Below are positions 3,880 through 59,515 of a stretch of 64,000 bases of DNA, one piece after another. The translations under genes and the position numbers were made by a program. The notes under the pieces are model-generated. The model ran no database searches. It was not told where the DNA came from and saw only the letters and a list, made by a program, of their open reading frames with translations. Source of the stretch: Glaciecola sp. HTCC2999 (lineage in GTDB: Bacteria; Pseudomonadota; Gammaproteobacteria; Enterobacterales; Alteromonadaceae); the NCBI GenBank assembly GCA_949498985.1, contig CATECQ010000019.1, positions 1 through 64,000 on the forward strand. The letters run 5' to 3'. Every line of letters begins with the position of its first letter. The stretch's first letter is position 1.

Positions 3880-3914
3880 AAAAAACTAGCGTTGATATGA
3901 ATGATATCAGCGCT
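3880..3914 (-). terminator. Intrinsic terminator overlapping the 3' end of the TIGR03643 gene
   Basis: AGCGTTGATAT-gaatg-ATATCAGCGCT is an 11-bp stem with one G-U pair. On the minus strand it is followed by a T6 run (complement of 3880-3885). The right arm includes the stop codon of the leftward TIGR03643 gene, and the hairpin sits between convergent genes, so it may also slow rightward transcription from the dehydrogenase. Confidence 0.65.
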
Positions 3915-4248
3915 TTCTAACTGGTTTATATTGCGTTGCACAATATCCCCGTGTAACGTCCTTAGAGCGAAGTGCACCATGCTTAGTTTTACGTCCACTA
4001 ACACGCGCTCGCCAATTATTAAATGTTTTACGCTTAATACTTGCTCGCATGAGATTGATTACCTGAGGCTCTGTTAACCCAAATAACGCTTCAATGGCTT
4101 CAAATGGCGTGCGATCTTCCCATGCCATCTCAATAATTCGTGAGCGAGTTTCTTCATCAAGTTTATCTTTGCGAATTGATGAAACATCTTGTTTTACTGA
4201 CTTTAACTTAGCCGAAGCATGCTTGGGTGTTCTTGGTGTATCTAACAT
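3907..4248 (-). CDS. TIGR03643 (DUF2805) family protein
   Basis: A 113-aa basic protein with the conserved TIGR03643/DUF2805 core: an RIIEMAWEDRTPFEAIE helix region near residues 37-53, a W(R)-rich stretch (FNNWRARVSGRKTKHG, about 75-90), and a basic tail. The family is widespread in Proteobacteria and Bacteroidetes and its function is unknown. The helical, basic character would suit nucleic-acid binding, but that is inference. It lies 38 bp downstream of the FAN1-exonuclease gene on the same strand, so co-transcription is likely, and ends within its own terminator hairpin. The N-terminal 30 residues are lysine- and serine-rich and look disordered. Confidence 0.85.
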   Translation of the reverse strand: MLDTPRTPKHASAKLKSVKQDVSSIRKDKLDEETRSRIIEMAWEDRTPFEAIEALFGLTEPQVINLMRASIKRKTFNNWRARVSGRKTKHGALRSKDVTRGYCATQYKPVRKR

Positions 4249-4286: not shown

Positions 4287-6452
4287 TTATAATTCAGAAT
4301 TAGATTGCTCTGCCAAACGATGTTCATTAATTATCGTCAATAATTCATTCGCCGCAATAGCATCCGACATTGCACGATGATGACGTGACATCTCAATCCC
4401 AAAATGTCGTGTCAAATTCGCCAGTGAATAAGACGCTAGGCCAGGTCTGGCTTTGCGCATTTCTCTAACCGTACACAGTTTTGCACGACTAAAATGCCGC
4501 TCTAACCGAGTGAATTCTTGTTTAATGAAGCCATAATCAAAATTCACATTATGCGCGACAAAAACACAGCCTTTGGTAAATTGTGCGACCTCGTCTGCCA
4601 CCTCAGCAAAAATAGGCGCATTGCTCACCATAACATCATCAATTCCGGTTAACGCAGAAATATTTCGGGGGATCCTTCGTTGCGGGTTAAGTAAAGTCTG
4701 ATACTCATCTACTATTTGTCCATTAATCACTTTGAGCATGCCAATCTCAGTGATTTTATGACTCGTAGCTCGTCCGCCTGTCGTTTCAATATCCACAACA
4801 ACATATGGCTGCATGGGATTAACTCCCCATGACACCGTTGTAATACCTACTGAAATCCCCGCTTTGGATAACATGCTCAGGGTGAGTAATTGGTTTTTAC
4901 GGACGCTATCTCCGGTTGCTTTGATCTCTTCAAAGCGCACTTGCTGGTTATCAATCACCATTATGTCAGGAAAGCCGTCGCTATACATTGCATAATCCTG
5001 TGCCATCGCTTTTAGCACGTTACCGAGCGACGCCGCCTTGGCATGTTCGATAAAGAGGACCAACCGCTTTAATATTTGTTTATGCCAACGAAAGATACCA
5101 TTAGGCTCACCATAATGCGCAGTGGCTTGGGCGATAATGTGTTGTTTAAGCGCATCCACCGTATCACATTGAGTCAATAGTGCATCTACACGTTCAGTTT
5201 GATCATGGTATAAATTATTATGTCGCAAATGATAAGGGCGCCAGTCAAATTCATTACCCACTGCAAATGCAGGGTCAAATATAATGTCCCAAAACATCAA
5301 ACCAAATAAACCCCGCCATAATTCGTTTTCAGTACGTAATGCTTGGATCCCACTCGCTTGGTAATGATCAACTGTCGCGGCTTCCACTCGATGTTTATGC
5401 ACTTCATCAAGTACCAACTGACGAGCACTATTACGTAGCATATCTGTCATGACGCTGGTCCGTTTTTTTTGGTATTTACGTGCTAAAAAATCCTCAGCAA
5501 ACGCCAATATATGTGAATTATCTGGCTGCTCAATAATCGCTTCTAATTGTTGTTTAACCTGCTCTTTATCAGCGTGCTGATACCGTATACGCAAGGCTTT
5601 TTCTTGAGCCTCGGGTAGCTCAGAGGCATCTAATATCGGTAATACTGTTTGCCAATCACTTTTTAGTTGTAATTGATACTTGGCGTATAACCATAAATAT
5701 TCGTTACGCTTTTGTCGCGCAAGCGTGCCGTGTGCATCGGGTAAGATATCGATACACAACGTAGGCTGTTGCGCAATTCTTCCAAGTTTGTGAATGCGTT
5801 TTAATTCACTTAGCGCAGATGCATAGAAATATGTCGACGTCGCTTCATTGAGAGAAGCAAACCTGGCTTGCATTTGAGCTACTTTTTTACGTGTTCGCAT
5901 CACGCCTAAATCACGCATTGAAAACTGATTAAGGCGGCTACCTACATTCCCAAAAAACAAGAAAAGTAGATAATCGATGATCGTATCTACTTGGCGATAC
6001 ACATATTGATGAAATATGGCATGCTCAGACACAAGAGCAAATGTTAAATGCGCTTGTGCTAAAGATAACAATTGCGCTTTAGAAGCACTGCTTAGCACAT
6101 TATCCACATCATGATCACGCAATAAAACCAATAACTTTGGCTTTGTCAGTTGCTCAAGCCATTCAAGGAAATGGGTTGCAGGGATCTGAGTTAGCCATTG
6201 TTTATCAAAGCAAACTTGCAAAGCATGCTCTGGGTCAGGGATTTCATCGTATCGTAATGAAGCACTGTCGATAAACGGTGATTTACGGTTTAAACTGCGC
6301 GCTAAAGTACACTGGACATGATGTGGTTGCTGTTTAAATACCTCAATAAATGCCCAATGCTGCTCTTCCAATAGCACTTCGCAACTACCACTGATAAAGC
6401 CTAAACATTCATGCAAGTGTTCTAAATAATAATAAGTAGGTAAATCTTTCAT
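4287..6452 (-). CDS. FAN1-type VRR-NUC structure-specific nuclease fused to DnaQ-like DEDDh 3'-5' exonuclease
   Basis: The 721-aa product looks like two DNA-repair nucleases in one chain. Residues 1-547 match bacterial FAN1 along their whole length: N-terminal FAN1 motif (YYYLEHLHE), a SAP-like segment (about 105-132), the winged-helix signature FFGN...DLGV (167-184), TPR-like helices, an FWDIIFDP segment (387-394), and a VRR-NUC core with FPDI (D496) and EEIKATGD (E509, K511). Residues 548-721 form a DEDDh exonuclease with D554/E556 (DIETTG), D639 (NFDYGF) and H692/D697 (HRAMSD), so both active sites look intact. FAN1 cuts 5' flaps and acts on interstrand crosslinks; the exonuclease could trim the products, which is inference. 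A LexA-like box lies directly upstream. Homology reaches almost to residue 1, supporting this start. Confidence 0.88.
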   Translation of the reverse strand: MKDLPTYYYLEHLHECLGFISGSCEVLLEEQHWAFIEVFKQQPHHVQCTLARSLNRKSPFIDSASLRYDEIPDPEHALQVCFDKQWLTQIPATHFLEWLEQLTKPKLLVLLRDHDVDNVLSSASKAQLLSLAQAHLTFALVSEHAIFHQYVYRQVDTIIDYLLFLFFGNVGSRLNQFSMRDLGVMRTRKKVAQMQARFASLNEATSTYFYASALSELKRIHKLGRIAQQPTLCIDILPDAHGTLARQKRNEYLWLYAKYQLQLKSDWQTVLPILDASELPEAQEKALRIRYQHADKEQVKQQLEAIIEQPDNSHILAFAEDFLARKYQKKRTSVMTDMLRNSARQLVLDEVHKHRVEAATVDHYQASGIQALRTENELWRGLFGLMFWDIIFDPAFAVGNEFDWRPYHLRHNNLYHDQTERVDALLTQCDTVDALKQHIIAQATAHYGEPNGIFRWHKQILKRLVLFIEHAKAASLGNVLKAMAQDYAMYSDGFPDIMVIDNQQVRFEEIKATGDSVRKNQLLTLSMLSKAGISVGITTVSWGVNPMQPYVVVDIETTGGRATSHKITEIGMLKVINGQIVDEYQTLLNPQRRIPRNISALTGIDDVMVSNAPIFAEVADEVAQFTKGCVFVAHNVNFDYGFIKQEFTRLERHFSRAKLCTVREMRKARPGLASYSLANLTRHFGIEMSRHHRAMSDAIAANELLTIINEHRLAEQSNSEL

Positions 6453-6460
6453 ACCAAACA

Positions 6461-6476
6461 GTGTATATACATACAG
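6461..6476 (-). promoter_or_regulatory. Candidate LexA (SOS) box before the FAN1-exonuclease gene
   Basis: Read on the minus strand the sequence is CTGTATGTATATACAC, against the consensus CTGT-N8-ACAG with an alternating AT centre; only the last core base differs. It begins 9 bp upstream of the start codon and overlaps a plausible promoter (TTTACA, 17-bp spacer, TACACT). The DNA-repair role of the gene and the clear SOS boxes at lexA in the same window make LexA control plausible. Confidence 0.55.
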
Positions 6477-6588
6477 CTTTTTTGTAAAATCATTGCACTA
6501 TTTAGTTTTTTTCAGTGTACATAAACAATCTTTTTTCTGATTCGTTGCGTAAGTATAATCATCTTCAATTAATAAGTGACTCGCCCCA

Positions 6589-6780
6589 ATGAGCCTAACG
6601 GAACCTAAAACGTTTGAATGTCCATATTGTATGGTAATTAACGATGTGGATGTTGATATTGACAATGATGTTGGGCAACAACAAATCGTTGATTGCCAAA
6701 TTTGCTGTTCACCGATAGAGTTATTGATTCAAGATTCAGGCTGGGGTTTAGAAATGATTGCCAAGAGGGATGACGAATAA
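6589..6780 (+). CDS. CPXCG-type cysteine-rich zinc-ribbon protein
   Basis: A 63-aa protein with cysteines at 11, 14, 36 and 39 (CPYC and CQIC), the pattern of the CPXCG small cysteine-rich family (PF14255), though the first motif ends CPYCM rather than CPYCG. The four cysteines probably bind one zinc; the role of the family is unknown. Its TAA stop overlaps the ATG of the flavin-reductase-like gene (TAATG), indicating translational coupling. A TATAAT at 6554-6559 could be its -10 element, but the -35 is poor and the Shine-Dalgarno is weak. Confidence 0.82.
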   Translation: MSLTEPKTFECPYCMVINDVDVDIDNDVGQQQIVDCQICCSPIELLIQDSGWGLEMIAKRDDE

Positions 6781-58849: not shown

Positions 58850-59473
58850 CTACATCCAATCAGCATTCCTTATAACACCGACTGCAATTCCTTCAATATT
58901 AAATGGCTCTTCCGCTAGATCGACTTTGATGGGATCAAAATCCTCGTTCTCTGCATGTAATAGGACATGTTGGCCATTCTTCTCTAAACGTTTTACCGTC
59001 ACATCTTCACCTACTCGTGCCACGACAACCTGCCCGTTGTGAACATCAATAGTGCGATGAACAGCCAACAAATCACCATCCAAGATACCAATGTCTTTCA
59101 TCGACATACCATTTACTCGTAACAAAAAATCGGCTTGTGGATGAAATAAGTTCGGATCTACCTGGTAATGAGACTCAACATGTTCCTGCGCCAATATTGG
59201 CTCCCCCGCAGCGACTCGACCGATTAAAGGTAAGCCCAACTCTTCAGGTGTATCATCTAAAGGAATATTTAACTTAATGCCACGAGAAGTACCCGCTAAA
59301 ATCTCAATCACCCCTTTTCGAGCCAGTGCTTTAAGGTGCTCCTCTGCTGCATTAGGAGATTTAAAGCCTAACTGACGCGCAATCTCTGCACGCGTGGGAG
59401 GCATCCCCGTATCAAGCATAGTGGCTTTGATTAAATCGAGAACTTCTTGTTGTCTGGGAGTTAGTGGACGCAT
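58850..59473 (-). CDS. lexA: LexA repressor
   Basis: LexA represses the SOS regulon and cleaves itself when RecA filaments form on damaged DNA. The 207-aa protein has the winged-helix DNA-binding domain (1-70, [20 protein letters not shown]), the cleavage bond A89-G90 in RVAAGEP, and the catalytic dyad S124 (NGMSMKD) and K161 (VTVKRLE). Two SOS boxes directly upstream indicate autoregulation. It is divergent from plsB. Confidence 0.98.
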
Positions 59474-59480
59474 AAACAGC

Positions 59481-59496
59481 CTGTTAATTAATACAG
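59481..59496. promoter_or_regulatory. LexA (SOS) box 1 upstream of lexA
   Basis: CTGTTAATTAATACAG is a full match to CTGT-N8-ACAG. It lies 8 bp upstream of the lexA start codon and is a very probable autoregulatory operator. Confidence 0.93.
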
Positions 59497-59499
59497 TTA

Positions 59500-59515
59500 C
59501 TGTTAGTATATCCAG
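59500..59515. promoter_or_regulatory. LexA (SOS) box 2 upstream of lexA
   Basis: CTGTTAGTATATCCAG matches CTGT-N8-ACAG except for one core base (CCAG). It follows box 1 after three bases, nearly two helical turns between centres. E. coli lexA likewise has two closely spaced operators. Confidence 0.75.

Follow-up and report, generated by a model that had tools for sequence, protein, structure and literature searches.

A predicted LexA operator upstream of a FAN1-exonuclease fusion gene in Glaciecola sp. HTCC2999

The site CTGTATGTATATACAC, located on the minus strand of the 64,000-nucleotide stretch of Glaciecola sp. HTCC2999 DNA analyzed here (the window), is predicted to be a working LexA operator controlling a gene that encodes a FAN1-type nuclease fused to an exonuclease, a reading to which we assign a probability of about 0.88. 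LexA control of this gene is very likely, and the gene would represent a new, well-supported member of the LexA/SOS regulon. In this organism, LexA would be expected to bind the site, repress the gene, and allow its induction. The original prediction of a nuclease under SOS control is supported by three lines of evidence, namely, the score of the site on a LexA matrix, the conservation of the box in 64 of 78 gammaproteobacterial loci, and the presence of the alphaproteobacterial LexA repeat upstream of homologous genes. The features of the window are listed in Table 1.

Table 1. Coordinates of the operator, promoter elements, and genes in the window
Feature	Position	Strand	Evidence
Predicted LexA operator CTGTATGTATATACAC (SOS box) before the FAN1-exonuclease gene	6461..6476	-	Matrix score, footprint, homologous loci
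-35-like hexamer TTTACA	6483..6488	-	Promoter match; TTTTACAA in 4/5 close sequences
-10-like hexamer TACACT, over the 3' half of the operator	6460..6465	-	Invariant in five close sequences
FAN1-type nuclease fused to DEDDh exonuclease, 721 aa	4287..6452	-	Pfam, PDB matches, catalytic residues
DUF2805/TIGR03643 protein, 38 nt downstream of the nuclease gene	3907..4248	-	Domain match
lexA (LexA_DNA_bind + Peptidase_S24), presumed repressor	58850..59473	-	Domain matches
lexA operator, proximal box	59481..59496	-	Pattern and matrix match
lexA operator, distal box	59500..59515	-	Pattern and matrix match

Results

The candidate operator overlaps a predicted promoter

The plus strand reads GTGTATATACATACAG from 6461 to 6476, and the minus-strand reading (6476 to 6461) is CTGTATGTATATACAC, exactly the letters and the location first proposed for a LexA-like box. 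Relative to the consensus CTGTN8ACAG, the site shows a single core mismatch, with ACAC in place of ACAG, and a gap of 8 nt (6460 to 6453) separates it from the ATG of the nuclease gene at 6452; both the one-base deviation and the short spacing had been described beforehand. The minus strand across the box, promoter, and start region reads TTTTACAAAAAAGCTGTATGTATATACACTGTTTGGTATGAAAGATTTACC. A sigma-70-like match, TTTACA-N17-TACACT (6488 to 6460), encloses the box and includes the -10 element TACACT that had been suggested to overlap it. This match agrees with the consensus at 9 of 12 positions, a level found about equally often in shuffled sequences, and the promoter is a prediction. The box lies between the -35 element and the ATG and overlaps the predicted -10 element. 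Because the promoter hexamers enclose the site, bound LexA would hide the greater part of the spacer as well as the -10 element. Transcription is predicted to start about at the nuclease ATG, giving a near-leaderless mRNA, and the off-consensus ACAC half-site suggests that repression may be weaker.

A cognate LexA and RecA are both encoded in this genome. The window contains lexA, preceded by two boxes of the same style as anticipated by the original prediction, and recA, on contig C32, has a CTGTATAATTATACAG box.

The gene encodes a fusion of two nucleases

According to Pfam, the 721-aa protein contains a FAN1_HTH domain (residues 7 to 87), a VRR_NUC domain (437 to 542), and an RNase_T/DEDDh domain (551 to 704). 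The matches to PF21315 (FAN1 HTH) and PF08774 (VRR-NUC) exceed the cut-off, and the C-terminal exonuclease matches PF00929 with an E value of 4.5e-34; it is this DEDDh domain to which the "exonuclease" label initially given to the gene correctly refers. Residues 1 to 545 align with the Pseudomonas FAN1 structures 4r89 and 5y7g (PDB), and the last ~160 residues align with exonucleases of the DnaQ and DinG types. The VRR-NUC residues D496, E509, and K511 (equivalent to D507, E522, and K524 of PaFAN1) and the DEDDh residues D554, E556, D639, H692, and D697 (D-x-E, D, H-x4-D) are invariant across 15 homologues, and both active sites look intact. Of 69 fused-gene loci, 28 have a DUF2805-like motif in the downstream region, on the same strand in 25 of them, and the DUF2805/TIGR03643 gene of the window may be the second gene of an SOS operon, co-transcribed with the nuclease.

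In undamaged cells, LexA would occupy CTGTATGTATATACAC, between the -35 element and the start codon, and block RNA polymerase. Upon DNA damage, RecA filaments would induce LexA to cleave itself, allowing the FAN1-exonuclease gene to be transcribed with recA, lexA, umuDC, recN, uvrD, and rmuC, perhaps together with the DUF2805 gene. The protein, in which a flap-cutting nuclease (FAN1/VRR-NUC) is joined to a 3'-5' exonuclease (DEDDh), would most likely trim or unhook blocked DNA, for example at interstrand crosslinks, in recombinational repair. Human FAN1 is a crosslink-repair nuclease, and a role of the fusion in crosslink repair is reasonable given its homology to FAN1.

A somewhat less probable alternative, which concerns function only and does not conflict with LexA control, is that the fusion acts mainly on double-strand ends or on blocked forks, by itself or in concert with RecBCD, rather than in crosslink unhooking. 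The position of the fused gene directly after recD in Idiomarina and Aliidiomarina maris (L124 413-4639 and L132 428-4693) suggests such a RecBCD link; a LexA-like site is also present between recC and the dUTPase gene of this genome, and the exonuclease domain is most like those of DnaQ- and DinG-type exonucleases. However, the FAN1 portion can be aligned over its full length to Pseudomonas FAN1, for which a role in crosslink repair has been reported, as cited in PMC9635880.

The box scores like a lexA operator

Simple counting of core-consensus sites was rejected as evidence. The window contains 15 sites within one mismatch of CTGTN8ACAG, in comparison to 20.8 expected, and exact sites genome-wide (17) are fewer than those of the reversed control pattern (24). 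Since one-mismatch sites occur at chance level, the match of CTGTATGTATATACAC to this pattern is not by itself beyond chance. The longer pattern CTGTATATATATACAG, allowing up to three mismatches, occurs once in the window versus 0.37 expected. Scoring with a matrix built from relatives' lexA boxes, a check suggested with the original prediction, was performed using 32 distinct boxes found upstream of these lexA genes, none of which came from the nuclease gene. On this matrix, CTGTATGTATATACAC behaves like a lexA operator: it scores 19.07, ranks second in the 64-kb window, and is bracketed by the scores of the two lexA boxes present there (19.43 and 16.47), nearly all lexA boxes used scoring from 13 to 22.4. 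The best other site in the window reaches 14.65 and lies within a gsp coding region, and the next one scores about 10.0.

Across the 2.07-Mb genome, 15 sites lie within three mismatches of CTGTATATATATACAG, versus five for the reversed control pattern, and CTGTATGTATATACAC is among the best eight of these 15. Sites with at most two mismatches precede umuDC, recN, rmuC, uvrD, recA, the FAN1-exonuclease gene and its syntenic counterpart on contig C12, as well as one small ORF; three-mismatch sites are found at recC/dUTPase, at ruvA, and as a second umuDC box, and some also occur inside coding regions (the names umuDC, recA, uvrD, recN, and ruvA were assigned from sequence). The recC site (L229 1501-1516, G000:C8:14613-14628), with a score of 15.1, is situated between recC and a divergent dUTPase gene. 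A 118-aa ORF (L032 1501-1916; G000:C1, from 80084) carries two LexA-like boxes, CTGTTTATTTATACAG and CTGTATAAATAAACAA. This ORF has no Pfam or NCBIfam match and is possibly a diverged SulA-type SOS gene.

The C12 copy of the fused gene (G000:C12:39555-41714; L046, L224) shows 83% amino acid identity to the window protein and has its own box, CTGTATATATATACAC. We rejected the interpretation of this copy as a paralogue, given that C12 is collinear with the window at 79 to 83% DNA identity across ~16.7 kb of aligned DNA. This collinearity makes it most probable that C12 belongs to a second species represented in the metagenome bin.

The box is conserved upstream of gammaproteobacterial homologues

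Conservation upstream of orthologues, also put forward as a check at the outset, was evaluated in 87 distinct fused-gene loci, of which 78 are gammaproteobacterial and 9 alphaproteobacterial. A box was counted when a site scored at least 9 on the lexA-box matrix within 200 nt of the start, and windows upstream of other ORFs in the same loci served as controls (n=114). A box was present in 64/78 gammaproteobacterial loci versus 2/114 control windows, related loci being non-independent samples; a score of at least 13 was reached in 54 of the 78 loci, and both control windows that reached 9 correspond to one single divergent site. Genera with the box include Alteromonas, Aliiglaciecola, Glaciecola, Aestuariibacter, Pseudoalteromonas, Aliidiomarina, and Motilimonas, and it is also present at three more fused genes from another family of Gammaproteobacteria (L245 to L247). 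At closer range, comparison of five close sequences (the window, its C12 counterpart, and three same-genus genomes) revealed that the block CTGTAT..ATATACACT is invariant and the rest of the upstream DNA has diverged, with the promoter hexamers kept alongside the box. The off-consensus ACAC is likewise conserved in these five sequences, perhaps because it is also part of the -10 element.

No site scoring at least 9 was found within 200 nt of the start in 14/78 gammaproteobacterial loci; the box is missing in L005 and L006 (both of the same genus), Aliidiomarina maris, Pseudoalteromonas G4, Paraglaciecola, genus g18, L029, and L136. In L005 and L006, only 8 nt separate the fused gene from the end of an upstream ORF; in L029, a decayed box (CTGTATAAACAACTGTAT) is visible; and in Aliidiomarina maris, the fused gene sits behind recD. 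On several occasions, therefore, the regulation has disappeared or been taken over by an upstream promoter. At one further locus (G025:C4:3197436-3200815; L028, L249), the fused gene is apparently interrupted by ~1.3 kb of DNA at roughly codons 85 to 100, and two LexA-like boxes are still found upstream.

We regard it as very improbable that the box serves the CPXCG zinc-ribbon gene (start near 6589, plus strand), which is divergent and shares the same intergenic region. The box is only 8 nt away from the nuclease ATG and within the predicted nuclease promoter, but ~110 nt from the CPXCG gene; L005 and L006 retain the CPXCG gene upstream, but no site exceeds 4 in the 1.5 kb searched; and across Alteromonas, Pseudoalteromonas, Idiomarinaceae, and Alphaproteobacteria, the nuclease keeps an operator although the upstream DNA is not the same.

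Alphaproteobacterial homologues carry another LexA repeat

The gammaproteobacterial box was found at 0/9 alphaproteobacterial fused-gene loci, the homologues being from Asticcacaulis, another Caulobacterales, and Bradyrhizobium. All nine loci (L126, L128, L133, L135, L150, L138, L139, L142, and L151) present GAACN7GAAC or GTTCN7GTTC 25 to 149 nt upstream of the gene, versus 0/39 alphaproteobacterial controls and 0/78 gammaproteobacterial loci. GAACN7GAAC is the published Caulobacter SOS box (PMC9578287). In two alphaproteobacterial genomes, a repeat of this type occurs about once per 41 to 45 kb, corresponding to ~0.7% per 300 nt by chance, and lexA carries the same type of repeat in all five alphaproteobacterial genomes where lexA was found. 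In Bradyrhizobium, the repeat upstream of the fused gene comes after a TTGACA. On the protein tree, in which the placement of two long branches (L126 and L136) is unsure, alphaproteobacterial-box and gammaproteobacterial-box loci separate, and operator type requires 6 changes versus a shuffled mean of 14.5.

The presence of the alphaproteobacterial LexA repeat in one class and of the gammaproteobacterial box in the other suggests that SOS membership persisted, with a different operator in each class. The odds are about even, in our estimation, that the FAN1-DEDDh fusion belongs to the SOS core of two proteobacterial classes, placed under LexA via unrelated operators by strong selection for damage-induced expression, LexA control having been kept or regained after the family split or after transfer between classes; the fusion may even be a one-protein crosslink-repair machine combining 5'- and 3'-acting nucleases.

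It is, finally, highly unlikely that CTGTATGTATATACAC is a chance AT-rich palindrome produced by the overlapping -10 element and devoid of LexA control, since, although one-mismatch core sites occur at chance frequency in the window and TATA-rich promoters look like the box centre, this explanation is opposed by the matrix score, the footprint in close relatives, a conservation far above that of matched controls, and the alphaproteobacterial LexA repeat.

Discussion

If controlled by LexA through CTGTATGTATATACAC, the FAN1-exonuclease fusion would be one more member of the SOS regulon, and the evidence for this comes from two classes. That Gammaproteobacteria and Alphaproteobacteria use different operators offers a natural test that selection acts on the regulation, and not on the DNA word, and a LexA-controlled bacterial FAN1 fused to a second nuclease would be a simple system for testing the in vivo role of FAN1. 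The literature searched contained no paper on SOS control of the fusion, induction of PA1865 (see below) aside, and an earlier prediction in subscription papers or RegPrecise is possible. Within this literature, and as far as shown there, the fusion protein, its clade-wide operator, and the operator change between classes appear to be new.

Standalone FAN1 genes of other Gammaproteobacteria presented a more varied picture, with a box in L238 (17.9) and L069 (19.7), a moderate one in L235 (9.6), and a weak one in L233 and L234; most of the others examined had no box, so SOS control does not extend to every bacterial FAN1 gene. Damage-induced FAN1 nevertheless has a precedent in Pseudomonas aeruginosa, where PA1865 (FAN1) was among eight ciprofloxacin-induced genes together with recA, recX, sulA, lexA, and recN, according to the account of Murray et al. 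given in PMC8526614. PA1865/PaFAN1 has the same FAN1 HTH and VRR-NUC domains as the protein studied here, an end-to-end alignment with it, and the same catalytic residues, but it is a standalone protein of ~560 aa without a DEDDh exonuclease.

The candidate operator resembles the LexA operators of E. coli and Shewanella (CTGTN8ACAG) in its palindrome, promoter overlap, and distance to the start, and the same boxes as in the SOS systems of these bacteria precede recA, lexA, umuDC, recN, and uvrD in this genome. It differs from them in that its target is a FAN1-exonuclease fusion and one half-site reads ACAC; the Shewanella SOS gene list names no FAN1 or VRR-NUC product (PMC4471891). In Caulobacter, mmcB encodes an SOS-regulated PD-(D/E)XK nuclease that gives mitomycin C resistance (PMC9578287). 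It is likewise a LexA-controlled nuclease for crosslink damage, as the fusion is proposed to be, but is a different protein with an alphaproteobacterial operator. DinG-type DnaQ exonuclease-helicases, lastly, provide the closest sequence matches to the exonuclease domain, but in these enzymes the partner is a helicase and not FAN1/VRR-NUC.
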